In this document: positions 23,570-56,447 of the stretch, piece after piece
How the letters are laid out: each line of letters opens with the position of its first letter
How positions within the stretch are numbered: position 1 is the stretch's first letter
Assembly (NCBI RefSeq): GCF_019059575.1
Contig: NW_024881704.1
Span: forward strand, 744,001-808,000
Direction: 5' to 3'
Length of the DNA: 64,000 nt
DNA from: Amphibalanus amphitrite
Taxonomy: Eukaryota; Arthropoda; Thecostraca; Balanomorpha; Balanidae
Made by a program: the position numbers and the translations under genes
Notes under the pieces: model-generated
Told to the model about the DNA's origin: nothing
The model's database searches: none
Seen by the model: the letters and a program-made list of their open reading frames with translations, nothing else

Positions 23570-25068
23570 CGTGAATGGTGATCTCCGAGTCCTTGTTGAC
23601 CTCGTACAGTCGGATGGCCTCCTGGAGCTCCTCCTGGGTGGACAATGTGCACGGGTCCCCTGCCGAGGCGGCCATGGGTGACGTTAGCATGGTAGCGTCG
23701 TCAGGTCAGAATAGTGGTGTGGCACTGTCTGACGTCAAAAGAGTCCTTACAGACTACGACATGCAAACGACCACGGAAATAGAGATTTGAAGCGGTGACA
23801 ATACGTCAACAGGAAAGCTTAGTGTGCATTAAAAAGGTGACTCATTCGTCCCTTCCCGCGCACACGTATACGTAAAACCAAGCTGTTTCACCGTCCTTGT
23901 GGTGAGTCAGCCCAAAAGCGATGATAAGGTAATCTGATATAGATGTCGCTTGTTATCCATCGTTCGCCCGATAGCTACAACGTCTTTACGGGGGGACTGC
24001 CGCGAGCTACCTTTACTTAAAACGATAACCAGCATCCTTATCCCCGGAGCAACTCTTTAACCTTCCTCAGGTCAACCCACCCTTCAGGGCGCTTGATAGC
24101 CTACCTTACCTAGCTGTATCGCCCACCCAAAAGCTCAGACAACACACACAACCCTCCCTTTCACAAACCAACCCTTCACGCATTTCGTCTCCGAAGCGAT
24201 TCTTCTTCCCGGCCGCTGAGACGGAAAACCCACATCTCCCACTGAAAAAGAGACACACTATCTCCAGCCCTCAGGCCTCCCTCTATCCTCCTGGAGCATG
24301 TCTCTCACCTGCCTCGCTTCTCTCACCTCCCTCGCTTCTCTCACCTCTCTCGCTTCTCCCACCTCCCTCGCTTCTCTCACCTTCCTCGTCGACCCATTTG
24401 ACGGTGAACCGTGCGTCGGGCGGGAACCGGCACGTGTCCTTAATCTCGCCCACCAGCGCCTCGAACTTCATGTCGGGGCTGATGTAGGTGATGTAGAACT
24501 CGCTGTAGAAGAAGAGGAGGTCAGCCGGAGGAATATAAAAACGGAGGTCGGTGGTGACTGGTGAGTGTCGGTTGCTTTTGACGAGAGCCGACTACAGTGT
24601 GAAAACAAGAGAAAAGAACAGAGCTTGGTTCTAGTTCAAGATGTTTGACACCAAGAGAGCAATGGTTCACTGTTCTTAATTTCGTTCACCAACAAACGTT
24701 CAACATACAAAGCAGAAGACAGACATGTAATAGAAGATCCATGCACAAAAATGAGTTAGTTTTCATGGACATACTCGTAATAATTGAAAAAGACACATAC
24801 CTACCCTTCTCAACAAAATGGTACAAAACATGGTCAAGAGAGACTAGAGAGCTGCTTACTACTGCATCACTCAGGGCAGATATTCACATAGTTAGGTGTC
24901 AGAGTGAGCAATGTCAGACAGCCCACTAAATTCCTCATGACTGTCAGAACTCAGATGTGCCAGCCACACAACCCAGCAGCAGACTGGTACTCCATGGTTC
25001 AGCTCGGCCACTCACCCTTTGAAGGCAGTTTTGACCTTGATCTCATCTGGCACCTGGTCCTGGGTCAT
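23570..25068 (-). CDS. aPKC: Atypical protein kinase C, 5' coding exons (partial)
   Basis: Three minus-strand exons encode the N-terminus of atypical PKC, the polarity kinase that works with Par6 and Par3 at the apical cortex. Exon 1 is 25068-25016 (ATG at 25068-25066), exon 2 is 24502-24381 and exon 3 is 23659-23570; all junctions are GT-AG and the phases join correctly. The 88 complete codons carry the PB1 domain from about residue 9: an IKVKTAFKG first strand, [14 protein letters not shown], then the acidic OPCA stretch KWVDEEGDPCT (53-63) and [17 protein letters not shown]. Exon 3 stops after codon position 1, where the family continues V-F-P. The C1 and kinase exons are not recognisable further left and probably lie outside the window. 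CAG just before TCACAATG looks like a splice acceptor, so a 5' UTR exon is likely. The exon 2 donor is tandemly repeated. Confidence 0.88.
24307..24380 (-). repeat. Tandemly repeated 5' splice site of aPKC exon 2
   Basis: On the minus strand the donor AAG|GTGAGA at 24380-24379 is followed by four more potential donors at exact 18-bp steps, with GT at 24362, 24344, 24326 and 24308. The unit is GGTGAGAGAAGCGAGGGA with minor changes; the second has GTGGGA. Because 18 is a multiple of three and the frame stays open to 24283, each donor preserves the same phase. Use of a later donor would insert 6, 12, 18 or 24 residues of a G-E-R-S-E-G type repeat after residue 58. Confidence 0.85.
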
Positions 25069-27341
<2,273 letters not shown>

Positions 27342-27402
27342 CCGGTGCATGCCATTGTTTTGTAGCATTAGCGTCAATAATGTCGACAAGATCATTCCAT
27401 GT

Positions 27403-30171: not shown

Positions 30172-33100
30172 ATGGATGACCTGTTCCCGGCGGTGCGCTC
30201 TGTCGCCACGGGCCTGCTCTACGATGAGGAGCTGATGCTGCAGCACCGCTGTCTCTGGGACCCCGAGTTCGAGGAGTGTCCCGAGCGGCTCCGATCTGTC
30301 CTGGAAAGGTGAGGAATGGATATCGGGGAGTGTGGGCTTTGTACAGGATCACTGTACTATTACTTTGTATTGAGGTTTCAGGTTTATGCGTATTTTGGTC
30401 ACACTTCATTGTGAGCTTGTACATGCATTACTATATTACATATCTATCAGTATGTCTTATATTTTAGATTTAATCGACTGGGCCGCTGATCTGTGCTATA
30501 TCTCGATGTCAGGTGTCGTGAAATGTAACGTAGCGTGTAGCCATGTAACGTGTTAGTCGCAGCAGGTCATGCGCCGTGGGATGACCCTGACCTGACCATT
30601 TACCGACCTCAGATGTCGGGAGCTCGGTCTGATGGAGCGCTGTGAGCGCCTGCCGTGCCGGCCGGCCACAGAGGCCGAGCTGCTCATGTTTCACACGCAG
30701 AGCCATCTGTCGACGGCCGCCGGAACCAGTGGCTGTCGCGATGTCGAGGCGCTGCAGCAGCTCTCGTCCAAATACGACACCGTCTTTTTTCACCCGGTGA
30801 GTGCATTGGAACGCTGGACGGTGTCTACTTAGTACTTAGAGCAGGTGTGAGACATGCAGAGTGTCGTTTAGAGTGCAGTGTTTCTGCCTTTAGCAGTGTC
30901 CCTCGTCATTCTCCCCCGCCCTATCGGCTAACTAACCCCCCGCCCTCCCCCGCGTGTGCCCCGTCGCCGCACCCCAGTCCACGTACAAGGCTGCGCTGCT
31001 GTCTGCCGGCTCCACACTGAGTCTGGTGGATGCCGTCATTGACGGCACAGTCAGAAACGGAATGGCGATTATCAGGTGAGGAGGAGGAACGGGAAGCTTT
31101 AACCTAGGGATGGGATAGCACTGGGCCGAGCACAGGATCATGGGCGGGACACAGCACGGTGCGGGGATTTTTTTCTGATGTGATCGCGAGACTGACGTTG
31201 ATGAGAGGGGGTGGGTCTATGGTCGGACACGGCATTGGGCTAAATCTGGGATTAGTAGGAAGCCGAGTCGCCGGGATTTTGGTATGGATATGGCTGATTC
31301 GGTAAAAAGGTGGGGATGGAGTTCCGGTGAGTTGGAGAGGTGTTTGTTGGTTCTAGACGATAGACAACGGTATACTAATCATTTTGCTTATGCATAATTG
31401 TGTCTTTTCGGAGCATGTCCTTGCCAGACTCCTGCCACACAAGATGCGTAGTATGTCCCAAATCAACAGATAACTGGATTTATCATCTCCCTACGATACC
31501 CTCGCCCATCCCCAGCTCTACTGCCCTCCCGATCTCCAATCCCCATGCTGTCTAATGTCTAACCCACCCCACCCTCCGCTGGTTCTCAGGCCGCCGGGAC
31601 ACCACGCCGGGCCCTCAGAGTTCAACGGCTACTGCTACTTCAACAACGTGGCGCTGGCAGCACTGCGCGCCGCCCAGCGTCGGCTCAAGGTGCTCATTGT
31701 GGACTGGGACGTCCACCACGGCCAGGGCACCCAGCGTGCCTTCTATGACGACGACAGGTCGGTCGGGGCTGACGGTGGCTTTTTGGGGGAGCGAATTATT
31801 ATAATCGGTTGTAAAAAAGTATTTTGCCTGCGGAGCTCTGCAGTCACACTCTTCTGTAATGATTTGGAGAAATTTATAACCCTTATAACTACGTTGTTAT
31901 ACAAGCCGAACATTGGAGGTAGGGACTATAAACATCAATCGACTAGATGTCGACTAGACGCACATCAATCGACTAGATGTGCGTGTACCAACAGCTAAGA
32001 CTGACATCGCCTCTTCTCGCGCCACCCTCCATATCTCTGCCAGGGTGATGTACTTTTCCGTGCACCGATACGAGCACGGTGAGTTCTGGCCCGGCCTGCG
32101 CGAGGGCGAGTACGACTGCGTGGGCGACGGGCCCGGCCTGGGACTCAACTGGAACGTGCCCCTCAACGGTACCGGCATGGAGGACCAAGACTATCTGGCG
32201 ATATGGCACCGGCTGCTGCTGCCCGCCGCTTATGAGGTGAGGAGGGGAGGGGAAGGGTGGAGAAAGGGGATAGAGCCTGTATAGGTATGTGTGTTATGTG
32301 ATTGTAGCCTTTGCTCTGCAGTTGGCACATGATGACAGAGTCTGAACCGCTGTCTACCCCGTCGTGTTTCAGTTTGCGCCGGATGTCGTGCTGGTCTCGG
32401 CCGGGTACGATGCTGCGCTCGGATGTCCCCAGGTGAGGCTATGAAAAAAAAACTAGCTGACTTTTTGTGGCGCTGATGACGGGATCGTTGACGTTTTGCT
32501 TACACTGCATACAATTACTACCAATTTAAATGATTAACCCGGGAAGAACTCTCCGATGGACGCTTGAACTGCTGACCTTCAATTTGGTTAATATCTGATT
32601 CGCCGCTTTTGCGTCTATCCATCAAGTTTTCTACTTATATATGAGAGCTTTTGTATTCATTACCTGACATTAATGCATCACTTTGGGCTCTGTACTACCG
32701 CTTGTATCTCTTCCACCGCCCTGTTGACTTCCAACCGTTCCCCTCCCGTTCGGTACCCCCAGGGTGAGATGCGGGTATCGCCGGCGTGTTTCGCGCACCT
32801 GACTCACTCTCTGATGAGCCTGGCGTCGGGCCGGCTGGCCGTCGTTCTGGAGGGCGGCTACTGCCTGTCTTCGCTGGCCGAGTCGGCCGCGCTCACCCTG
32901 CGCGCGCTGCTGGGCGACCCGCCGCCGCCGCTGCCGGCCCTGCTGCCGCCCTGCGACAGGTCAGACTGGGAACCGCTGTATGTCCGTTCGATAGGTGGAA
33001 CATTGAGAGGCAGTCGATCAGCTGAGAAACGCTGGTGTGAGAGATGTGATGGATTGTATCAAGCGGCTAGGGCTGAGGGAAATGCTGACCCATTTACTTG

Positions 33101-36100
33101 GAATTGGTGGTCGGCTTGTGTAAGGTGTGTAAGGGGGGGGGGGAGGTGGCCGGGGGGAGGAGGAGCCCTCCTGTAAATGGGAATATATGAGCCCGTTGGA
33201 GGGAGGCCTGAATAAAAAAAATATAGGGCAACACCTGGGATGATGCGAGGGAAAAAAAGTCGAAGGCTTATCCATACGACTTGTTAACAACCACCGTCGC
33301 ATGATGTGTCAGTTTTTCCGATGTCATGTTTTGACTCGTCTAAATAATGTATTGGCGAGAAGCCCCCTCCGTTGTGTCTGTCTTGTCTAATCTCTCATTC
33401 TGTATCCACATTTCAGTGTGGAGGAGACCATTCTGAACGTGGTGTCTTCCCAGCGGCGCAGCTGGGGCTTCCTGACGCTGTACGACACGTACCACCCGGC
33501 CCCGGGCGGGGGCGGCGGCGGGGGCGGCGCGGCGGCGGCCCCCGACCAGCACATCCCAGTGGTGGAGTACCGCGGCGACCCGCCGCCCGCCGACGCCACC
33601 TACCCCACGATCGGCGCGTGTCCCGTACAGAGCGAGGAGGAGAAGGAGCGCTACCGACGGGAGCTCGACCAGCTCAGAGAGGGTGCGTGAGGGAGACAGG
33701 GAGGGGTGTCAGTGGCTACTGACTAGTGGCTGGGTATGTGTGCCTCATTCGCGCCCTGGGTCGTAGCTGTCGGTACCCCCTGAGTAAAGTGAAGATACCT
33801 TTTGAAGTCCATTTAGAATATGTTTTCGGCTGTTCTTCAAAAAGATATCAAGCCTTCTCCCGTAGTTTTGTATGGTGTCAAAGCTGCAATTGGGAACTGG
33901 GTTAACGTTCATTGAAGAGAAATTTTTGAAAGGTTGCAGCATTCTTCCGTGAACTTAGGTGAACAGTGTAGGCATGAGCTCAGCTGACGTTTCGGATAAT
34001 ATAAAAGCTCGATAGCCATTAGGCGATGTGTGCCGCGTCTCTGCTGCTCTCCTGATTTTTGTTCCGCTCCTCAGATACAGACCTGTCTGTTGTGCCATGT
34101 CATCTGCTAGTGTCTCAATGCCCGACAGTGACAGTTGCTCTGTTCCGCAGACACCGATCTTACTGTGGCCCCGTGTCGTCTGGTGGTGGCCAAAACACAC
34201 CACCACCATCCCAACCCCATGAACGGGTGAGTGGTACAGCGCGACGCCCTTTTAGGTCACCGTGCTTTGAATTGCCACGTTTGTACAGTGTGCATTAGTA
34301 AACATAATTGAGTTCATCTTGAATGTTTGCTTTGAATACGTATACAATTAATTGTGTAGATGTTGGTGGGCTAAGTCGTGTATATTTCCCCTATCTGTAC
34401 GACACTCCGCTGACGCCTACCCTGTACCGTACCGTACTACAGGTACAGGGTGATTCGTTCAGTCTGTGGCGGCGCTGATGCAGGGCTGTCTGGAGGGGAG
34501 GGACAGTACAATATCCCATCTAACCCTCCCCTGCTCTACAGGGTGATTCGCTCCGAGTCTGTGGCCGCGCTGATGCAGGGCTGCCTGGAGGTGGGCGGCG
34601 GAGCAGACGCATGTCAGGAGGACGGAATCACAGAGGTCAGACGGAGGGAACAGATGGACTCGGACAGACCTGAACGTTCAAACGTTACTGATTTATTTTA
34701 TAGAAATATTTATGATTTGTTTATGATTTATGATAAAAACTTGGAATCAGTTGAGGAGTTGGTGTGACTGTCGTGCTTCTCAGCCCTGTTTAAAATTGCT
34801 TTCTGCCCACCCCTCGGCTTACCTCAGCCGCTCTCTCCCCTTCCCTCCGCCCTGTGTATCACTCCCACCCTCAGGACCTCTGATAACCAGCCCCCGTGCC
34901 GCTCACCCTCAGGCCATTGACGCCGTGCTGGAGGACCGGGCCGTGGCCGGTTTCTGCGCCTGTATAGAGCCGGACGGACCGGCCGCGGCGCGACACGCGC
35001 TCTCCCGCTGCCAGCGCCTCCTGGTGGTCGACTGGAGAGACTCGCCACTCTGCGGTCAGTCGCGGGAGGGCGGCCTGGCGCCGGGGACTGGTCGGTGGTT
35101 AGGGCAAGCTTCTGTCTCCTCGTGCGTTACATACACCCTCTTCATCAACACCCTCTTCAGTGGCGCTGATAGTGGCTGATAGTGTCCCCACCTTTCCACT
35201 CCATCGCCAGCGACTCCAGAGGGCTGTTCACGGGCCCTGTGTGCGGTCGGACCGCACACAGCCTCCAAGCTCCGCCCACTGCGTCCGTCACCGCACACCA
35301 GTGGCGCGGGAACCGGGGGGGCTAGGGGGGGGGGGCTGAGCCCCCCAGCTTTTCGGCTGGGGGGGCTCGTAATGTATTTGAGCCCTCCCAGCTGGAGGAA
35401 TCGAAATCGGAAATCTACCAACATAATTTCATAGATTCATACATAGGCGTGGGAACCGGGGGAGGGGGCAGTGGGGGAAGCTTGCCCCCACAACTCTGCG
35501 GCCGTGGGGGCGGTGCCCCACAACGTTTCATGAGGCCAGGAACCGTCGGGCAGCTTGTCCTCCCCAAATTAGGGGTTGTGGGTCACAAAGGAAGAAAGCA
35601 TGTAAGTGAAAAATCCATCTATTTCACTGGCTCGGCAACTCATTTGGCAGATTAAAACCTTTACTCCAGGTTGCCAAAACGGTAGTTTGTTCACTCAGCT
35701 GAGACGGAATACCTCACTTTTTGAAAATATTTTCTTTTTTTTGTTGTTGTTGGAAAGGCCAAGGTCTGAAAAATAAGTGGCCTAAAACCGGTGAGAAAAC
35801 TAGATTTGGGGGTACCCTAGGTTGATTTCTATTATGGTTCAGCCCCCCAGTCTGGAAGAAGTTCCCGCGCCACTGCCGCACACAGCGACCGCTGTGGCCG
35901 GCCGGGACTGGCCACAGCGGACCGTCCACCGCACGCAGCCGTGACGTCAGAGCCGCCTACCCATCCCCTACCCCCACGCCTGCTGAACGCACCGCACACA
36001 CCGCACGCAGCAGTGTGCGGTGCTCGTGAACACCCCTCTGACTGGTGTCTTGTGTTGCCCTGTCCCTGAGCTGTGTCCCCTGACCTCTATCTCTCCTCTC

Positions 36101-37462
36101 AGTCATCAGTGGCTCCCGACCGGGTTCTGATGGCGCCCGGACCCTGACCTCTGTATGTGACCTCTGTATGTGACCTCTGTATGTGACCTCTGTCCCTCCC
36201 CAGTGGCTCCCGACCGGGTTCTGATGGTGCCCCGCCCCTGACCTTTGTATGTGACCTATATGTCTTCCTTGTAGTGGCTCTCGACTGGGGTCTAATGCCG
36301 GCGTCTTGTTTCTGACCACTGTGTGACCTCTGTATGTGACCTCTATCCCTCCCCCCAGTGGCTCCTGACTGGGATCTGATGGTGCCCTGTCCCTGACCTC
36401 TGACTGTAACCTATCCCCCCAGTGGCTCCCGACTGGGGTCTGATGGTGCCCTGTCCCTGACCTCTGACTGTAACCTATCCCCCCAGTGGCTCCCGACTGG
36501 GGTCTGAGGGTTCCCTGCCCCTGACCTCAGTATGACCCCCCTCTCGCCGCAGTGGCTCCTGACTGGGGTCTGATGGTGCCCTGTCTCTGACCTCTGACCT
36601 GACCCCCCCCCCCGCAGTGGCTCCCGACTGGGGTCTGATGGTGCCCTGTCCCTCGGACGCCGAGGCCGTGGTTCTGACCATCTCTGGCGGCGGCTGCGAG
36701 GTGGTGAACCTGCACCACGACCAGAAGACCACCGCCGAGCTGTCGCCGACCGTCGAGCCGCTGGTGAGTAATCGCGGAGTCTTTTGTCCTGTGATTGCCA
36801 ACCCCAACTGGCTGCGGAAGCTGCAGCTGCTGCCCTCTCTTCCATGCATACAACCTGCTAAACTGGGTCATCCTCCATTATTTCTTTGTTTTGATGACTC
36901 CTTCGCTGACCCAGTGCCCTTTCTTTGGGCTCTGTCTCGAATCACCTTAGTGTGCTGTGTGTAGTTCGGCGGCCCGCCAGCTAACCGTGCCTCTCCGCGC
37001 CTCTCTCAGCTCTCGTGGGCGGGCGCGGACCGGATCCGCACGCCGCTGATGCTCGAGTCGCCGTCCCCGGACGTCAGCTGGGAGTCCGGCGAGGCGGTGG
37101 CGCTGCTGACGCAGCTGCTGCTGCCGCTGGCGTACCAGCTCTGCCCGCAGCTGGTGCTGCTGCTGGCCCCGGCCGTGCCGCCCGAGTCGGCCGCGCTGGC
37201 GGAGCACGTCACCCACCATCTGCGCGCGCTGGCCGGCGGCCGGCTGGTGGTGATCGGCTCGGACGCCTGTCTGCCGCCGCTGCTGGGCCGGCCGCCGCGG
37301 CCGCTGCCGCCGCTCGGCGCGCCATCTCTCGCCGCGTTGGCGAACCTGCGCCGCGCGCTGCGCCGCCAGGGGCAGCACTGGCCGGCACTGGCCGAGATGA
37401 AGAGGGTGCCCGAGACAGCGCTGGAGGGAAGGAAGCCCTCCACCTACGAGCCCTTCCACTGA
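30172..37462 (+). CDS. HDAC10: Class IIb histone deacetylase, HDAC10-like (13 exons)
   Basis: Zinc-dependent deacetylase of 737 aa. Exons: 30172-30308, 30613-30796, 30978-31075, 31590-31757, 32044-32236, 32373-32432, 32763-32959, 33417-33682, 34151-34226, 34542-34635, 34913-35054, 36618-36763, 37010-37462; all GT-AG with matching phases, stop TGA at 37460. Residues 14-345 form an intact catalytic domain: RPPGHH (140-145, catalytic His pair), VDWDVHHG with zinc ligands D180 and H182, third ligand D273 in SAGYDA, catalytic Tyr 313 in LEGGY. A Gly/Ala-rich linker (about 373-388) leads to a degenerate second domain (about 465-737) lacking these residues, as in HDAC10. There is no ubiquitin-binding zinc finger, which argues against HDAC6. 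Human HDAC10 is 669 aa. Oddities: the HDAC10 gatekeeper Glu aligns with Gln 280, and the N-terminal loop reads PEFE rather than PECE and is two residues shorter. HDAC6-like or polyamine substrate preference therefore cannot be assigned. Confidence 0.92.
31900..31990. repeat. Short imperfect repeats in HDAC intron 4
   Basis: CATCAATCGACTAGATGT occurs twice within about 50 bp and is itself partly palindromic (ACATC...GATGT), separated by CGACTAGACGCA. It sits about 60 bp upstream of the exon 5 acceptor and could fold in the pre-mRNA. No function is known. Confidence 0.6.
34440..34498 (+). pseudogene. Decayed tandem duplicate of HDAC exon 10
   Basis: ACAG|GGTGATTCG...TCTGTGGCGGCGCTGATGCAGG...CTGGAGG is an imperfect copy of the true exon 10 start (34542 onward), about 98 bp upstream. 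It keeps the acceptor-like CTACAG context but lacks 2 nt after GATTCG relative to the real exon, which shifts the frame, and it has no donor equivalent to that of exon 10. It is best read as a partial exon duplication that has decayed. Confidence 0.8.
35217..36040. mobile_element. Element with CAGAGGG terminal inverted repeats in HDAC intron 11
   Basis: The left end CAGAGGGCTGTTCACG and the right end (reverse complement CAGAGGGGTGTTCACG) match at 15 of 16 bases. Both are followed inward by GTGTGCGG-rich sequence. The CAG termini suggest hAT, but no clear 8-bp target duplication is visible, so the limits are less certain than for the inner element. It contains the separate hAT-like insertion 35299-35875. 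Confidence 0.6.
35299..35875. mobile_element. hAT-like non-autonomous element nested in HDAC intron 11
   Basis: Perfect 15-bp inverted ends CAGTGGCGCGGGAAC are flanked by a perfect 8-bp target duplication, CCGCACAC (35291-35298 and 35876-35883). G-runs follow the left end. The right interior (AAGTGGCC, then GAGAAA, then GATTTGGGGGTA) resembles the right interior of the large element ending at 63154, so the two belong to one family. No transposase is encoded. Confidence 0.88.
36110..36617 (+). repeat. Tandem array of decoy 3' splice sites before HDAC exon 12
   Basis: The exon 12 acceptor and its first 35-40 nt (CAG|TGGCTCCCGACTGGGGTCTG...) are repeated seven times upstream. Exon-like starts lie at 36110, 36204, 36275, 36359, 36423, 36487 and 36553, before the real one at 36618. 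The last spacings are 64-66 bp. Each unit includes a pyrimidine tract and AG. Read in the phase of exon 11, every decoy keeps the start of the exon (V-A-P-D-W-G-L-M or close) but hits TGA after 12-13 codons; only the last copy continues into coding sequence. Confidence 0.9.
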
Positions 37463-42813: not shown

Positions 42814-43701
42814 TCACCATGGCCGCCACATGCCCTCGTCGCCCAGCTTCAGGTTCAGCGGGCTGGGGCTGCACTGGGAGGAGGCCGGCGCGCGCGGGGC
42901 CGCAGACACCGGCGTCACCACGGTGAGGAGACCGCTGTCGGCGCCGCTTGAGTAGCCCGAGCTGCAGCTGTCGGCCGGGCTGGCCGGGCACGCCGTCACC
43001 GGCACCCGGGTGCGGAACTGGGGCACCTCCACCGTCAGCGGCGCAGACAGCCGGCGCTGGTCGAGCGCGCGGAACGAGCTGCCCAGGTGCTGCATCACGC
43101 GGGTGCCCAGCTCCACATCCACGCCAGGGGTGAAGGCCAGGGCCCGGCTGACCACGGTGGCGGCGGCGGAGAACCCGGCGCGGTACCGATCCAGCTCGGT
43201 CTGCGGACTGGCGGCCGGCGCGGCCGGGGCAGCGGGGGCGGCGGCGCGCCGCTGCGCCTGCAGCTTCTGAAGGTGACGTACAGCCAGCTCCAGGACGTCG
43301 GCCTTCTCCAGCTTGGCGGCGCTGTCGCCCTCCATGGACAGCGCGTCCACCATCAGGTCGCGCATCTGGTCCAGGCAGCGGTTGATGCGCGCCCGACGCC
43401 GACGCTCCAGCAGAGGTTTCAGAACCTGAGGAACAGCGGAGAGAGGCCGTCAAGACCTTGTCCAATGTGCTAACAGTGACAGCAGGCAATGGGCGAGAAC
43501 AATTCCATGTGACTAATGTTGAAAATATAAACGTTGAAACGTAAAAGGAGAACTACAATGCACTGAACTCAGAAGATTTTTAAAGTACAAATCGTAATAA
43601 GTTGATTTTAAGATGCTGTAATAAAAACTGAAGCCGATGCTCACCTTTTTGTAATCGCTGGGGCTCGCCGACTCCGAAGGGATCACTTGGCAGGGTGCCA
43701 T
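42814..43701 (-). CDS. HES: Hairy/E(spl)/HES bHLH-Orange transcriptional repressor
   Basis: Nuclear repressor, typically a Notch target acting through Groucho. Two minus-strand exons: 43701-43645 (19 codons, MAPCQVIPSESASPSDYKK) and 43425-42814 (stop TGA 42816-42814), giving 222 aa. The bHLH spans about residues 20-77, with the family-typical proline (P23) in the basic region (KPLLERRRRARIN) and LEKADVLELAVRHL in helix 2. An Ala/Pro-rich linker follows, then the Orange domain (about 95-137, DRYRAGF...VMQHLGSSFR), a Ser-rich segment (SSGYSSGADSG) and the C-terminal WRPW that recruits Groucho/TLE. The single intron lies just before the basic region, where vertebrate HES1 also has its first intron; the two introns inside the HES1 bHLH are absent. 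Length is close to Drosophila E(spl) proteins. Ordinary HES versus E(spl) orthology cannot be settled from one window. Confidence 0.95.
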
Positions 43702-44030
43702 CTCGACTCTGTTCGTTTCACCGCTCGTCAACACGTGTCTCGCTCACTGAAATCGCCTCTCTCTCTGGAGCTCCTCACTGCTCGCCGGCTCAGACCGTAA
43801 TGCCGACCGCAGCGGCGGCGGCCGGTTTTAAACAGCGGCCGCCAGGTGCGCGCGGCGCCCGGCGCGCGGGGGGCGGCCGCCGCGGCGTGGGAACGCAGAC
43901 ATTCCCACAGCGCGCGAGGCGCGACGCACCTGGCGCCCAGATGCCGCCGCCGCCGCCGCCGGCCGCGCGTAGTGGGGGCGCCGTATAGTGGGGCGGGGTG
44001 AGGGGAGGGGGAGGGCGCACGTGCAGTGCT
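43702..44030 (-). promoter_or_regulatory. HES promoter: paired Su(H) sites, E-boxes, TATA-like box
   Basis: Upstream of the HES start are two perfect Su(H)/CSL sites in inverted arrangement: CGTGGGAA (43886-43893) and TTCCCACA (43902-43909), separated by 8 bp. This resembles the Su(H)-paired site of Notch targets, though those usually have 15-17 bp spacers. A CACCTG E-box lies at 43927-43932. CACGTG boxes, possible sites for HES itself or other bHLH factors, lie at 43732-43737 and 44018-44023. TTTTAAA (43826-43832) may act as the TATA element, placing a start near 43800. The region is very CpG-rich. Confidence 0.65.
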
Positions 44031-49911: not shown

Positions 49912-50069
49912 CACCTGCCGCAGACTCCCACGGCCGCCACTGGGTCAGAGGCGGCGGCGCGGCGCCGGCGGGGGGCCGAGGAGGCCGCCGAGCAGCCGCG
50001 ACCGCCTCCACCTGCCGCCGGCTCCCACGGATCGGGCCTCCGCGGCGGCACCTGCCCGATTCTCCCACG
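49912..50069 (-). promoter_or_regulatory. Cluster of three Su(H)-N7-E-box composites
   Basis: On the minus strand, three copies of CGTGGGAG followed after exactly 7 bp by CAGGTG lie at 49932-49912, 50029-50009 and 50069-50049. In all three the E-box is GCAGGTG, the preferred form for Achaete-Scute-type activators. The Su(H)-like half ends in G instead of the consensus A, so it may be weaker. The surroundings are GC-rich and non-coding, 6.2-6.4 kb upstream of HES. Confidence 0.5.
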
Positions 50070-50934
50070 GAGCGAGCCGGTCGAGCATGCGGGCGCCGAG
50101 GGCCAACCGAGAGTGATTTGGGCGCCCCCGGAGGGTCCATATGGGTGGCTGCCGGGCGGCTCAGGAAGCCGGCCGACTGCAGACGCTGATGAGGTGGGGA
50201 CGGGAGGGGAGGGGGCTTCCACGGAGGCTCGGAGGGTGGCGTTATTGCTAAACGGTGGTGCACTGATGAGAGATACGGGACAGGGGGTGGGGAGTGAACG
50301 CTAAGGGTTATTTTAGATTGTTTTATTTCAGCCCGAAACAAAGAGGATGCGAGCTGCACTGCAGGAGTGATTGTCGGGCCTCCTGTCTTCCTGTCCATCA
50401 GCTGTCTTGTGGTAAAGCTGTTTGGACGGCCAGAGTTGCCAACAAGGCAGCGACAGGGCGTCGCGGAGACCAGGGGAAACCGAACCCGTGCCGACGTCTG
50501 CTGTCCGATCGACCGATACCGTTCGTAGACTGAGTGCGAGGGGCGGACCCGCTGGGTGGGAGGGCGGACCCGGACCGCCTGGGAGAGCCGCCGGGCCGCC
50601 TCTCCCACACCCATTACCGACTGCCCGAGCCGTCAATGACGGCCAATCATCCTTCTGTTCCTGCTGATCCACCACACCGGCCACCGACTTTCCTCACCAC
50701 CGCGGGAAAAGCTCCGATAAGCCGACACACGGCCGAGATATCATCCCACGCAGAGCTTTGCTCCCGTTCCCATGAAACCGACCCTCTCCGTCGGCGTCTG
50801 CAGGGGTGTCGGCGACGACGACGCTCCGTCGTCGCCGGCTGTCGTCGGCGCGTCGTCTCGGCTCGGCGGCGGCGGGCGGGACGCGCCCCCGGTCGGAGGA
50901 ATGCGCCGCGGGATCAGATAAGCGTCTGGCGGCC
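50070..50934. other. Gene-free GC-rich DNA between composite sites
   Basis: No exon is recognised; open frames on both strands resemble no family. One TGTGGGAG at about 50595 lacks an E-box at the 7-bp position. The sequence is otherwise unremarkable. Confidence 0.35.
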
Positions 50935-50955
50935 CACCTGCCGCTGGTTCCCACA
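50913..50955 (-). promoter_or_regulatory. Su(H)-N7-E-box composite with adjacent GATA site
   Basis: Minus strand: TGTGGGAA (50955-50948, perfect Su(H) consensus), 7 bp, CAGGTG (50940-50935). The 11-mer ATCAGATAAGC, with a GATA-factor core, lies 11 bp away at 50913-50923 and recurs exactly at 54419-54429 near another composite. Confidence 0.5.
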
Positions 50956-52349
50956 GTGAGCGCCCGCTGCAGCTTAGTATGCGGCCGAGCTGTGTCGTAA
51001 ACGGAGACGCGCCGCCGGCTGAGCAGCCCGTATCGGGCGGGCTGCCGAGGCCGGCAGACGGTCCCGAGCTGACGCAGCTCAGTCCCCGTCACCGCTCCTG
51101 TCCTCAGTGTCTACATACTGATGTGTACCCGAGGCTCCTCCAGTCAGTCCCAGCTCAGTACCTGATATTTCTGAATCCCTTCGGTGCTTCCGGGCTACCG
51201 AACATCAACCGGCGGTTTGTTGTCGTTTCTGGGCCAATGTTCATTTATTTTTATCGAAAAAAGGTTTGCGAACACATTCGGAGTATTTTTTTTTCAAAGA
51301 AGTTTTAAGGCAGAAAAAAGCGTTCGCTGTGAAGGAACAAAATCGACCTAGATTGAGTTGTTATTTATGATCGTTTTGCATCTGCATTCTGCATTTGCGC
51401 ACATTCAGCAACGCCACTTCTAGGGCTTATCTGTTATTTTCATGGCTTTGTGGAGCCAAAAAAGGTTAAGTACCTACTTTAAAACAATAAAAAAAAATGT
51501 TTTTGGCATAAGCCCTCAGGCTAGGAATAAAACTATCTGTACTGCATGATGAAATGCAGCATTAAGTCAGACCAGTGCAAATATGTTTGGTCAGAACACA
51601 CAGCAATGTTCCGTCTCTGTCTGACAGGCCGGCCATGCACAAACCGATCCGACGGGGATCGCCGTTGAGATGCGGGCGGATGTCTGGGGGCACGATCGCG
51701 TCAGATTCGCCACTCATGCGCCACGATTCACCTCCAATGCGCCACGACTTGCCACCGGTTCGTGCCTGCCGTGTGGCTGAACGGAGCAGTGATCGCACGC
51801 TTTACCAATCCTTCTGTCAGGGCCGGATTCAGCCGCTGAAAAACACAACACTTGAACCAGATTTGGCGAAAATATTGGCCTCTTCTGCTGGGTCGCGGCT
51901 CTGGATGGACCCAAACATGTCAGAGAGCAGCACTCAGCAGATGGGATAGAAGCGCCGGGCGACAAACCGCGCCGATTCTGCCGCGTCACGTCTGGCCGAT
52001 TTGCGCCGCGTCCGCCGTCATTCCGACCTCGCTGGTCGCCCCAGCTGCCGGTCTCCCCATTGAGAACCTGCGCTGGTGGCCGCGGACCAACCCCACCGCA
52101 ACGCTGCGCGCGCTAATCCGTCCGAGCACTCATCAATGACCGGCGCCGGCCCGCCCATCCGGCCCCCACTCCAAACCGCCGCGTCACAGCTCGCGCGCGA
52201 GGCCCACTCGCGGTCGGCGCGCCGCGTGCGTCCCACGCCCGCGCCGCGCCGCGCGCAACCGTCATTCTGAAAAAGGGCCGCCGGCCGCATCCCATTGCGA
52301 TCACGTCGCGGTGAATGGGCTCCAGCGCTGGTAATGACTGCCCGCTGCA
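50956..52349. other. Gene-free stretch between composite sites
   Basis: No exon is recognised. The sequence is AT-rich from 51.2 to 51.6 kb and GC-rich from 51.9 kb. Nothing else stands out. Confidence 0.35.
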
Positions 52350-52468
52350 CACCTGCCACCGGTTCCCACGGCTCGGCCGGGCGGCGGCGGCGGCGGGGGC
52401 GGCGGGTGGCGAGCACGTGACGTCCCGCGTGACCGTGACGCGGGCGGGGCGCGTCACGGAAGCACGTG
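52350..52468. promoter_or_regulatory. Su(H)-N7-E-box composite plus two CACGTG boxes
   Basis: Minus strand: CGTGGGAA (52370-52363, perfect Su(H) consensus), 7 bp, CAGGTG (52355-52350). Two identical AGCACGTGACG boxes follow, with CACGTG at 52414-52419 and 52463-52468, 49 bp apart. They could bind bHLH-Orange repressors or other class B bHLH proteins. Confidence 0.5.
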
Positions 52469-52599
52469 ACGCTCCACCCGCGCCGCCGATCTCAATGGAT
52501 GACGCCGCGCAATTGAAACAAAATCGATGACTCCGCTTCCGGACTCGTCGGCTGTATCTCAATGGCGGCGCAATCGAAATCGCTGATTTGCGTGCGAGG

Positions 52600-54260
52600 G
52601 CGCACTGATATGAATTTCACGGACGGTGCTGAATTTGAGTTTCGACCCATCGAAATGGGGTGGTGGCATTAACACCGAGTTACGACTACTGTTTGATGAC
52701 GCCATTCAGAGAGAGCAGTCATTGTGGATGTAGCCACAGCCAGGGTTACATAATGGAAACGGAGGGTGTGGTACTCCAAATGGTGATTGGATTTTGTCAG
52801 TGGACGAATTGCAAGTCATTGGCTGTTCGTGTTCATGAAGTTTCCTAGTTTGATGAAAAGTAGTGCAAAAGCGCACCTGGACATGCTTGCACATAGGTAT
52901 TTATTTCTGCTATGTACTTACACATACGAAGCAGATAAATAAAATAAGGCAACCGACAACCGTGAAAAACATCTCATGCCCTATATCATCACAGCATTGT
53001 TAAGAGAAGTGCATAAATGTATCTTATTGTTTGCATCACCATTTATTCGTGCATGCTGTCGCTTTGTAGTAGGTACAGGATTCTTATGCAAATGTATCCC
53101 CTATTAAAGCAAGCACTTGGACAGCGCAAAAACATAATAATTTCAGTCTTATTTGTTGCAATGTCATTTGCTCAGGTGGACGTCACTTGATAATAACGAA
53201 GTGCTGCAGTAATTGTACAATTTCCTCTAGCTGTCATGTTCTCGGAACGTGTTAACTCCTTGTGCAAGTCCCCACTTGCCCTCGCCGACATTTGTCACAG
53301 TGCTGATAGCACCAACACGTGTTCGTACAAGTCGCTGCTCATGGGGCAAAAATGACGCTAATTATCCACACATGCGGTGGAGATAGCCGAAAACGTGAGC
53401 CCGAGCCTGTCCATAACCCGTCGTGGGTGCGATGAGAAACCTGACCTGCCGAACATCTGCAGTGATCCGTCAGGCCCTCGTCGCTATTCCTGAAATGTCA
53501 TATGTTCAAGCATGTCCCTGTTTCGGAAACGTCAACCGTCCTGTACTGGGAATGAGGTAAGAGAGAATGGAAAAATTGCCATCAGATAGGATGTAGACGA
53601 TTCGACCAGACATAAATAAACGAATAGATAACCCGAGGTAATGTGCAGTGGGACATCTAACGGGGAAGGCAAAGGAACATTAGGTACCAAGAATAAAAGG
53701 GCTTCAAATGTCAGAACTAGCGCATCGTGGAGTGACACAACGCCTGCGACGTGATCGGGCCAAAAACATCTTTCGGGGCTTTAATTTTGACTCACGTGCG
53801 AGCGGTTTTTTTCATTAGATTATCTGTTCAGACGTGTAAAAACCAGCCGCCTGATGAAACTATTACAAGACGGATGGCGTGGAACAAAGGGCTTAGTCGC
53901 GCAGTGGAGATGTTCCATATTCATTTGAGGTTGAGTTAATACTCATCTCAGCTTCTAAATTTCAAGTAGATGGGATTAAGTCACAAAGACATTCCGCAGT
54001 ACATACCTAACCGGCGCGGTGGTTACTTGCCAGTGGTTCCTGATGATCATTATTCTTACTCACTAGTCAGTTCCATACGCGGCCATTCAAACATTTTTTT
54101 ATTTAAAATGTTGATAAGGCGGTTCCTAGACGGCCATTTCAGATGAAATCAGAGCTTCACCAAAATCCGCTGTCGATTTTGGGCTGTAGAACGTGATATG
54201 TACCAGCTTCCTCCGTCTCGTCGGCCCGCCGCCGCGATCCGTCCGACCGGTCCCGGCGTC
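52600..54260. other. Gene-free AT-rich stretch
   Basis: No exon, domain or clear repeat is seen. It separates two GC-rich blocks that each contain composite Su(H)/E-box sites. Confidence 0.4.
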
Positions 54261-54263
54261 TAA

Positions 54264-54544
54264 CACGTGTCCGCTGTCCGTGCACGGCGCACGTGCCCGT
54301 GCAAGACGCACGTGAGTCACGCGCGCTCGCCAGCTGCAGCGCGCCGCGCCACCGCCGCCGCCGCGCCAGTATCGCCTGCATATCGCTCCGCAGCGCTGTT
54401 TACCATTCTGAGGGCGGCATCAGATAAGCAGCGCCGGCGGCCGGCGGAGGCCAATGATGCAGCCGATTGGGCCCATAAAAGGGTGGTGCGGCCGGCTAGC
54501 CACCACCTGTCCGATTTTCTCACGGATCTGCCGTGGTGACGTCA
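54264..54544. promoter_or_regulatory. Dense regulatory cluster: CACGTG x3, GATA, CCAAT/TATA, Su(H)-N7-E-box, CRE
   Basis: Three CACGTG boxes (54264-54269, 54290-54295, 54309-54314) are followed by ATCAGATAAGC (54419-54429), CCAAT motifs on both strands (about 54450-54470) and CATAAAAGG (about 54473-54481). A perfect composite (TTCTCACG 54517-54524, 7 bp from CACCTG 54504-54509) and a palindromic TGACGTCA (54537-54544) complete it. The CCAAT, TATA-like and downstream arrangement looks like a core promoter, but no exon follows. It is about 10.7 kb upstream of HES. Confidence 0.5.
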
Positions 54545-56220
54545 CCGCCGGCGCGCCGGATTTGAACGCGGCGCGCCGCCACCGCCGCCGCGAAAGTGTA
54601 ACAATGGCTGGCAGATGGTGAGCGGAGGAGACTAGGAGAATTTCCTGAGCGAGGGGGCCCCGGTTCCGGAGGGCGCCTCCGGAGCTGGACGTAAACGGAA
54701 GCTGAGCGCGTCTTTGTTCGCTGAGGCGACTCAACTTGGAGGAATCAGCACAGCTCGGGCGTGAAAAGTGAAGGCGAGGGTCCGAGGGGACAGGAAGTTC
54801 CCAGAAACTCGCACGCGCAGCTGCAGATTCCTAAACAGTGTGTCAGACTTTGACTACATAATGTGTTATTACTCATTCTACGGTCAACGAAAGGCATAAT
54901 GAAGGGAACAACGGTTTACCTTCGTTTAATGAGCGGCAGAAACGTCTAGGCATTTCCTGCCTTTTTCTGAAATAACAGTCGTTCAAGACCACACAAGTGC
55001 CTTCGCTTTTTATGACAATTATATCAATATTCTTGATAAGACTAAAATAGCGGTTTTATGCAAGTCAAACTATCTGGCCGAGAAGTGACAGACGGCGTCG
55101 AGTATTGCGTTAAAAAGGTCCTCAAGTGCGTTGATATATTACTAATGAATAAGCCGACGCCTTTATCTATCTTACACCGGATCATAATTGCAGTTTTCTG
55201 CCAGGCCTCCTTTCTCTCAGACAAGTCAGCAAGAAAGAGCACTTCCGGGGGAATTATCTTCCATTTAAACGCTACACTGTGCATCTGTGTGGTCCCTAAC
55301 GACTGCAAGTTAGCGCAACACAGGCCGTAATGACGCCCACCTGGCCTGCTATGGCGATAACAGGCTAACCATAACACAGATTTGTCTTCTGCGGTCGCCG
55401 CTACAGCTGGGACGGGCGCTGCGTCTCAATTTCCAGCGAGTAGTTGGGAACGCCGGGCAGATAATTATCGACGGACGTTAAAGTTGAGTGCTGCTGTCGT
55501 GGTCGTATGTGATGACTTTCTGGGAAAATGTCATCACAGTGAAATGTGGACAGGGAACGCCAGCTATAATACACGTGGGCGATGTCTCGGCATCTGACTG
55601 ACACGCGTGGGCTTTTATGGCCGCAGCTTTGTCATTTTATGTGCGCATTAGAAACCTCTCATCGTGACATATAAATCTATTATATGACACAGGTTATATA
55701 CTGTGGAAGATAAAAAATCGCTTAAGTTCAGTTGAGATATAGGTATGGGCTGAGCTGCTAGTTGGAAATACCTCATTCAAAGACGTCGCCGCATTTATCA
55801 ACAATGCCACGTTCATGATTCAGCGTTCACTTGCTTGTTTCAAAGAAAACAAAAAGTTTTGATTTTACACGTATGTCACTTACGTAGTTGTTAGGGTTTG
55901 TTTTCGTTTTAATTCGCAATAACAGCTCAGAATGAATCGGATATCACGAAAACATTACGACATGACCCTCTAAGGTCACCGCGGTGAAGACCCTTCTGAT
56001 ATCAGCGGGACCTCTCTGTTACCAGCAGAGGACCCTCTGACACCAGCAGATCACTCTGACCTCTAACGTTAGCGGGACCCCTCTGACCATGAAGCCCCCT
56101 CTAACATCAGCGAAGACCCCTCTGACACCAGAGGAGGACTTCTCAGTTCTCTCTTACATCAGCGGTCAGCGGGACAGCCCCTCTTACATCAGCGGTCAGC
56201 GGGCCGACCCCTCTGACATC
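54545..56220. other. Mostly gene-free, with a GACCCCTCTGACATCAGCGG minisatellite at its end
   Basis: No exon is recognised between 54.55 and 55.96 kb. From about 55970 to 56225 there are imperfect 20-25 bp units based on GACCCCTCTGACATCAGCGG, clearest at 56150-56225, where TCTTACATCAGCGGTCAGCG is tandemly duplicated. Confidence 0.6.
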
Positions 56221-56274
56221 AGCGCGGGCTCAGCGGCCGGCCCCACCGGTCGTGCCAGTCGATCTCGTGCCGGC

Positions 56275-56447
56275 CACGCGCCATCTCCAGCCGCCGCTCG
56301 CTGTAAGCCGCCGCTGCAATGCAACCGCGCCGTGTAAGCCCTCCAAAGCCGTCACCGTAAACCGAGCTGAGCCGGCCGCAGGCAGCCGTCGCGCCGCCCG
56401 CCCGCCCGCCGCCAAATCAGCCGATCCGTGGGAAAAAGAGGCAGGTG
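56275..56447 (+). promoter_or_regulatory. Su(H)-N7-E-box composite (plus strand) with nearby CACGCG
   Basis: Plus strand: CGTGGGAA (56427-56434, perfect Su(H) consensus), 7 bp, CAGGTG (56442-56447). It is the only one of seven in this orientation. A CACGCG class-C box, the preferred site of Hairy-type repressors, lies at 56275-56280. The flank GATCCGTG is shared with the composites at 50009-50029 and 54504-54524. Confidence 0.5.

Follow-up and report, generated by a model that had tools for sequence, protein, structure and literature searches.

The HES gene and the composite array

The DNA analyzed here is a stretch of 64,000 bp from the barnacle Amphibalanus amphitrite (contig NW_024881704.1, positions 744,001 to 808,000; C207:744001-808000 in our contig numbering), hereafter the window. 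It carries a HES gene resembling the E(spl) genes and, 6.2-12.7 kb upstream of it, seven copies of a composite of a Su(H) site and an E-box, which are likely to represent one repeated cis-regulatory element. An earlier note on this DNA placed the composites upstream of a HES gene. This was supported, and the gene shows features of a Notch target. The exon 2 open frame (42814..43449, minus strand) encodes a basic helix-loop-helix (bHLH) domain and an Orange domain (PF00010, 4.4e-13; PF07527, 5.6e-10) and ends with WRPW, so that the features by which E(spl)/HES proteins are recognized are all present. Exon 1, as read from the sequence, is probably located at 43645..43701 on the minus strand (MAPCQVIPSESASPSDYKK) and is followed by a GT splice donor. 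In the promoter, 185 bp upstream of the probable ATG, two Su(H) sites form an inverted pair (CGTGGGAA-8 bp-TTCCCACA; 43886..43909). The pair is flanked by two CAGGTG E-boxes, one at 43843..43848 on the plus strand and the other at 43927..43932 on the minus strand (CACCTG on the plus strand), both preceded by a C.

The seven composites of the form YGTGRGAR-N7-CAGGTG were found exactly at the coordinates reported before, six on the minus strand and one on the plus strand. Composites 1 (49912..49932), 2 (50009..50029) and 3 (50049..50069), all on the minus strand, share the Su(H) word CGTGGGAG and have the spacers tctgcgg, ccggcgg and aatcggg in front of CAGGTG, respectively. Also on the minus strand are composite 4 (50935..50955; TGTGGGAA, ccagcgg), composite 5 (52350..52370; CGTGGGAA, ccggtgg) and composite 6 (54504..54524; CGTGAGAA, aatcgga), each with CAGGTG. 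Composite 7 (56427..56447) is the copy on the plus strand and combines CGTGGGAA, aaagagg and CAGGTG. As had been noted, the Su(H) word ends in GAA in four composites and in GAG in three. Regarding the formula N7-RCAGGTG given earlier, the distance of 7 bp was right and the notation was not: seven bases separate YGTGRGAR from CAGGTG, and the formula therefore has to read N6-RCAGGTG.

The spacing and orientation of the composites proved to be as fixed as proposed. Scanning the window with 43 gaps (-2 to 40) between Su(H) word and E-box, in the same order and orientation, yielded 7 exact matches at gap 7 and none at the 42 other gaps, while the other three arrangements of the two words gave 4 exact matches in total over the identical gaps. 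No further copy was seen in the window at gap 7 with one mismatch, and two copies were found with two mismatches. Background models gave 0.004-0.007 expected matches at gap 7, which includes the previous estimate of about 0.004. With 7 observed matches versus at most 0.007 expected and none at the other gaps, a chance origin of the composites was rejected. When any CANNTG core was allowed at gaps 0-24, the seven composites remained the sole matches in the window with a perfect YGTGRGAR. An unbiased scan of 6-mer pairs at fixed gaps of 2-20 gave a maximum of 6 copies, reached by two families only, namely a tandem array at 36.1-36.6 kb and the Su(H)/E-box composite.

Further invariant bases became apparent when the seven copies were compared. 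A C directly 5′ of the Su(H) site and a G two bases ahead of CAGGTG are present in 7/7 copies, giving the consensus CYGTGRGAR-NNNNNGR-CAGGTG for the 21-bp composites, which extend over 6.5 kb. The E-box core CAGGTG is invariant, and variation within the recognized words is confined to the degenerate positions of the Su(H) site (Y, R) and its last base (R). Seven of the eight Su(H)-like words between 49.5 and 57 kb belong to composites. A coding function of the region was also considered and rejected: 79 open frames of at least 70 amino acids (44.3-64 kb), from which low-complexity frames had been removed beforehand, yielded only two weak Pfam matches (FAM47, 0.0018; PurT_C, 0.0042).

Copies in the probable second haplotype and elsewhere in the genome

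Genome-wide scans covered the assembly of 807.55 Mb in 2644 contigs, with the reversed pattern as control. The extended pattern CACCTGYC-gap-YTCYCACRG was found at 80 places (control 41) and peaked at gap 7 with 19 places and 11 distinct strings, whereas each of the 19 other occurring gaps (2 to 22) was represented by 1-8 places and 1-5 distinct strings; gaps 5, 6, 8 and 9 gave 2, 3, 2 and 1 places. The 19 places at gap 7 comprise the seven composites of the window, seven on contig C470, and one each on C375, C377, C417, its partner C1054, and C952. A pattern shortened by the last flank base gave 31 places at gap 7; after subtraction of 14 on C207/C470 and merging of apparent haplotype pairs (one of which differs by one base), about 12 loci outside the window locus remained. 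A looser motif gave 148 places, of which about 100 were listed, with 83 for the control, and this number is inflated by an unrelated repeat, TGTGGGAATGTCATGCAGGTG.

When the CANNTG core was left open at gap 7, 41 places were found genome-wide (control 14), 11 of them supplied by another repeat, CAGATGTCCTTG. With this repeat and haplotype pairs set aside, CACCTG was present at 11 loci, seven of them in the window, CAGGTG at two loci, and six other cores as well as CAGATG outside the repeat at one locus each. The E-box core at gap 7 is asymmetric and nearly strictly CACCTG.

Contig C470 is probably the second haplotype rather than a duplicate, judging from 91.8-94.9% identity over the three main segments. 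Between 47,951 and 57,282 of the window, 6.9% of the bases outside composites differ from C470, compared to 0/98 core bases and 1/49 spacer bases within them. Composite 1 is identical on C470, and the spacer of composite 5 reads ccggcgg there. In random draws, zero core differences were obtained in 1.8% of cases with gaps counted and in 3.7% for ungapped positions. In the adjacent 10 bp of the composites, 9/136 bases differ (Fisher 0.011).

The spacer also recurs. At 3 of the about 12 outside loci it is identical to a spacer of the window (C377, CCGGCGG; C417, AATCGGG; C636, AATCGGA), with 0.08 expected under an independent-base model. As exact window spacers recur at unlinked loci, the spacer seems to be constrained too, a point missed in the earlier note. 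Allowing for 2 mismatches, composites of the AATCGGR type were found at 10 places genome-wide (control 1), eight of these at 0-1 mismatch, representing four loci on two contigs each, and the pair C580/C965 at 2 mismatches. The same tolerance gave 12 places for the CCRGYGG type. Seven of them have 0-1 mismatch, namely three sites of the window with their counterparts on C470, and C377; the other five, among them composite 1 and its C470 counterpart, have 2 mismatches. The further composites with window spacers are located at C377:169292, where the complete 21-mer of composite 2 recurs, and at C636:86969 / C717:194091; one at C198:157709 is one base off. Downstream of the C636 composite lies a retroelement-like open frame of 1159 amino acids (L035:5739-9218, minus strand), in a stretch that is not alignable to C717.

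The composite on C417 accompanies a second HES gene, which is unlinked to the first one (C417/C1054), shows 52% identity over the bHLH-Orange query and also has a WRPW end. This composite is located about 0.6 kb beyond the stop codon, in a stretch of 46 bp that is 85% identical to the stretch containing composite 6 (E 5e-7). Common to both 46-bp stretches is TGACGTCA, a palindromic sequence resembling a cAMP response element, which in the window (54537..54544) lies 12 bp ahead of the Su(H) site of composite 6 and at C417 10 bp ahead of the composite. The promoter of the second HES gene has an inverted Su(H) pair as well, TGTGGGAA-8 bp-TTCCCACG (L034:3256-3279, C417:78056), and the inner spacer is thus 8 bp at both HES promoters. 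Genome-wide, GTGGGAA-N{4,20}-TTCCCAC was found at 60 places (control 59); a gap of 8 occurs in 4 of the 50 places listed, one at each of the two HES genes and one at the second copy of each (C470, C1054).

The composite as a putative joint Su(H)-bHLH site

Taken together, these comparisons make it likely that a single composite cis-regulatory element is repeated here in seven copies of 21 bp, each a joint site for Su(H) and a bHLH/E-protein dimer. Since the same distance is kept in each copy and a further copy stands beside the second HES gene, the Su(H)/E-box pair is probably read as one unit. In the proposed mechanism, Su(H)/CSL would occupy YGTGRGAR and a bHLH/E-protein heterodimer CAGGTG, and the two would touch across about one helical turn; such a contact would explain why order, orientation and spacing are all fixed. 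Most likely, the array would then provide enhancer cores through which the HES gene is driven wherever the bHLH partner is expressed, and ordinary Notch input would come from the inverted Su(H) pair of the promoter. We infer binding by Su(H) and a bHLH factor, the HES gene as target and activation as the outcome. Joint binding, as suggested before, is a natural and plausible reading of the motifs; a proneural partner of the Ascl/Ac-Sc type is one of several candidates.

Several observations weigh against this reading. Fourteen of the 19 gap-7 places belong to the window locus and its C470 counterpart. With the last flank base dropped, the 31 places at gap 7 are matched by 30 in the control, and gap 6 yields 13 places (control 7); outside the window locus the two gaps are about equally frequent, with about 12 loci at gap 7 versus 11 distinct strings at gap 6. 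Equal abundance of other spacings, named earlier as a refuting outcome, was not seen with the extended pattern, but outside the locus there is no general excess of gap 7. As the excess stems mostly from the window locus and a few relatives, the composite is not a genome-wide code, which counts against a general PTF1-like code. In the comparison with C470, also the 100-bp flanks differ at only 16/1091 bases, so that 0/98 is unremarkable beside them (Fisher 0.64); the composites therefore lie in generally conserved blocks and the haplotypes give modest support. For the CCRGYGG spacer type, the control of 16 exceeds the 12 matches at up to 2 mismatches, and therefore only the seven places at 0-1 mismatch are meaningful. 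Among 14 HES-like places in the genome are those of two more HES-like genes (C94/C130), for which the complete lists of composite matches show no copy. No gene was recognized beside the copies on C377 and C636/C717, for which 58 of the 81 open frames of L033/L036 (C377 and C717 copies) were scanned (at least 75 amino acids, low-complexity frames removed; 23 frames of L033 set aside because they were repetitive or overlapped others), those of L071/L072 were assessed by eye only and those of L035 from the open-frame list only; the sole weak Pfam match among the 58 frames was He_PIG (0.006), and among 98 HLH matches none was listed on C377, C636 or C717. Measured from centre to centre as is usual for the TC-box, the two sites are 12 bp apart and thus exceed one turn of 10.5 bp by about 1.5 bp. 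Finally, the strict CAGGTG core also suits Snail-family zinc fingers.

Given a joint site, Ptf1a/Fer1 in a PTF1-like trimer appears to be the likeliest partner, at somewhat less than an even chance, followed at some distance by an Ac/Sc-type proneural protein, with any other factor clearly less probable than either. The PTF1-like reading is slightly preferred because the rigidity needs direct contact and only Ptf1a is known to make one; this preference is weakened by the nearly strict CAGGTG core and the missing genome-wide signal. PTF1 consists of Ptf1a, an E protein and RBPJ or RBPJL. It binds an E-box together with a TC-box (a CSL site), and the distance between the two boxes is critical (PMC2586380, PMC5576485). 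The earlier statement that no rigid module of this kind has been described is therefore no longer tenable, since the vertebrate PTF1 complex is a rigid CSL-bHLH module. A description of the 7-bp Su(H)/E-box unit itself was not found in the literature searched, which does not prove its absence. The element would thus appear to be a CSL-bHLH composite that is rigid, has a spacing and a spacer of its own, and is present in several copies upstream of a HES gene.

A candidate partner is encoded in the genome. A Ptf1a/Fer1-like gene was found at C1740:71712-79055 (minus strand) and C772:201578-215757 (plus strand). Its first bHLH exon shows 83-87% identity to a mouse Ptf1a query sequence, and a later exon, which reads GHSLSWSHERPLTNNNSQVTTKLWHPEDPR on C1740, 50% identity (E 1.9e-4). 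This C-terminal exon keeps GHSLSW...LWHPEDPR, and its two tryptophan motifs correspond to the RBPJ-binding region of mouse Ptf1a. By sequence comparison, this genome thus has a candidate Ptf1a ortholog with the CSL-binding C-terminal motif. There was no solved PTF1 complex among 9 PDB matches to the Ptf1a bHLH.

In its strict form, the PTF1 reading would have the Ptf1a/Fer1 ortholog as partner, joined to Su(H) and an E protein in a trimer that is stable and independent of Notch. We regard it as possible, albeit doubtful. Composites of E-box and CSL site with critical spacing are PTF1 targets (PMC2586380, PMC5576485), and the barnacle composites likewise have a constrained spacing of about one turn. 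The order of the sites is that of PTF1 targets, and the Ptf1a/Fer1-like gene keeps the predicted CSL-binding tail. In contrast, the centre distance of 12 bp differs from the one or two turns between PTF1 boxes, for which the excerpts (PMC2586380, PMC4880809) give no base numbers, and the gaps that would correspond to one turn (6) and two turns (16-17) show no excess. CACCTG together with the CSL consensus YTCYCAC is present in 7/7 composites, but the strict TC-box TTTCCC in 1/7 only (56427), the others being TTTCTC, GTTCCC (2), ACTCCC, GCTCCC and TCTCCC. PTF1 tolerates other E-box cores, whereas here nearly only CACCTG is found, with a constrained spacer. Furthermore, a general code would be expected at many genes, and the element is confined to few loci, where it is arrayed upstream of an E(spl)-like HES gene.

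Equally tentative is a further reading, in which the composite may belong to an arthropod Su(H)-bHLH-E protein unit that is PTF1-like but distinct, with a 12-bp geometry and a spacer that is itself read, and the multi-copy array would place HES genes of the E(spl) type under direct control of a bHLH factor, separately from the Notch-driven promoter pair, the geometry of which would be a short 8 bp in this lineage. Should the partner be Ptf1a/Fer1, a PTF1-type complex would act upstream of HES genes in an arthropod.

A little less probable still is a proneural input of the 'S + A' type, in which Ac/Sc-Da would act together with Su(H) and the rigidity would result from contact of a class II bHLH protein with Su(H) or the Notch intracellular domain. 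Regulation by Su(H) together with proneural proteins is classic for E(spl) genes (PMC3261227), and in the window, too, CAGGTG and Su(H) sites accompany a gene of this kind, including a promoter in which the inverted Su(H) pair is flanked by two CAGGTG boxes. The sequence GCAGGTGK, which is preferred by Drosophila Scute, fits 5/7 sites. In the m-alpha enhancer of Drosophila, the distance of 14 bp between an E box and a Su(H) site is conserved, and activity drops severely when the E box is moved (PMC3390367); unlike here, that enhancer has one E box among five Su(H) sites and no repeated rigid unit. The proneural A box is RCAGSTG (PMC3261227), yet CAGCTG is absent at gap 7 in the window and occurs with the extended gap-7 pattern at one haplotype pair genome-wide. 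The fly A box is found at varied distances from the Su(H) pair (PMC3261227), whereas the composites use a single Su(H) site at fixed distance and orientation to the E-box. The SPS + A arrangement of Drosophila E(spl) genes, i.e., an inverted pair with a spacer of 15-17 bp (PMC8494340) and an RCAGSTG A box close to it, was not found: the inner spacer of the window promoter pair is 8 bp, and both promoter E-boxes have a C in place of the R. Direct contact between Su(H) and a proneural protein is not known, and a proneural partner would suggest such a contact.

Binding of the CAGGTG half by a Snail/Escargot/Zeb-type zinc finger, in a switch between Su(H) and a repressor, or of the whole 21-23 bp by one long zinc-finger protein, is improbable. 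The invariant CAGGTG with an R ahead corresponds to the Escargot/Snail site, and a constrained spacer would suit a many-fingered protein. Against this, the copies vary where the Su(H) consensus itself is degenerate, the element is found at two HES genes carrying inverted Su(H) pairs, and a rigid CSL-Snail unit is not known.

The remaining alternative, a small repeat or local duplication leaving remnants of a short dispersed element without regulatory role, was judged by the flanks. The earlier argument that these speak against a dispersed repeat was upheld, as 150-bp flanks aligned in 18/21 composite pairs (three pairs were excluded as too close) scored barely above their own shuffles (mean 16.3 vs 14.4). 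Compared to random nearby positions not matched for GC, 23/36 flank scores were above the 95% point, which the GC-rich flanks (66-82% GC) would explain. A slight likeness exists among the 20-bp flanks next to the Su(H) site (7.5 vs 6.25 of 20, about 1 in 300 shuffles). Of the four outside loci compared, only that of the second HES gene shows homology beyond about 27 bp. A true repeat looks different: copies of TGTGGGAATGTCATGCAGGTG (e.g., L002, L005, L006) have nearly identical flanks in 12/12 fetched cases. Even though two spacer types recur, all seven copies lie in GC-rich stretches and the flank scores leave some likeness, we consider a dispersed repeat very improbable, as the loci compared mostly lack homology beyond the motif, the AATCGGR type is almost without diverged copies genome-wide, and little of the flank likeness is left once each flank is compared with its own shuffles.

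It has long been debated how strict the spacing between Notch-factor and bHLH sites has to be in enhancers, and seven copies with one spacing and another one by a second HES gene form a natural test set for this. What they have in common, namely spacing, E-box core and spacer, suggests which features are maintained by selection.

Neighbouring features of the window

Apart from the HES gene and the array, histone deacetylase exons (PF00850) were found near the HES gene at 31474-33176 on the plus strand. A weak PB1 match below the cut-off (E 0.0033) at 24283-24591 on the minus strand resembles an atypical protein kinase C exon by eye. A long GA/CT microsatellite extends over 26900-27400, and the tandem array, located at 36100-36660, has a unit of several tens of bases.

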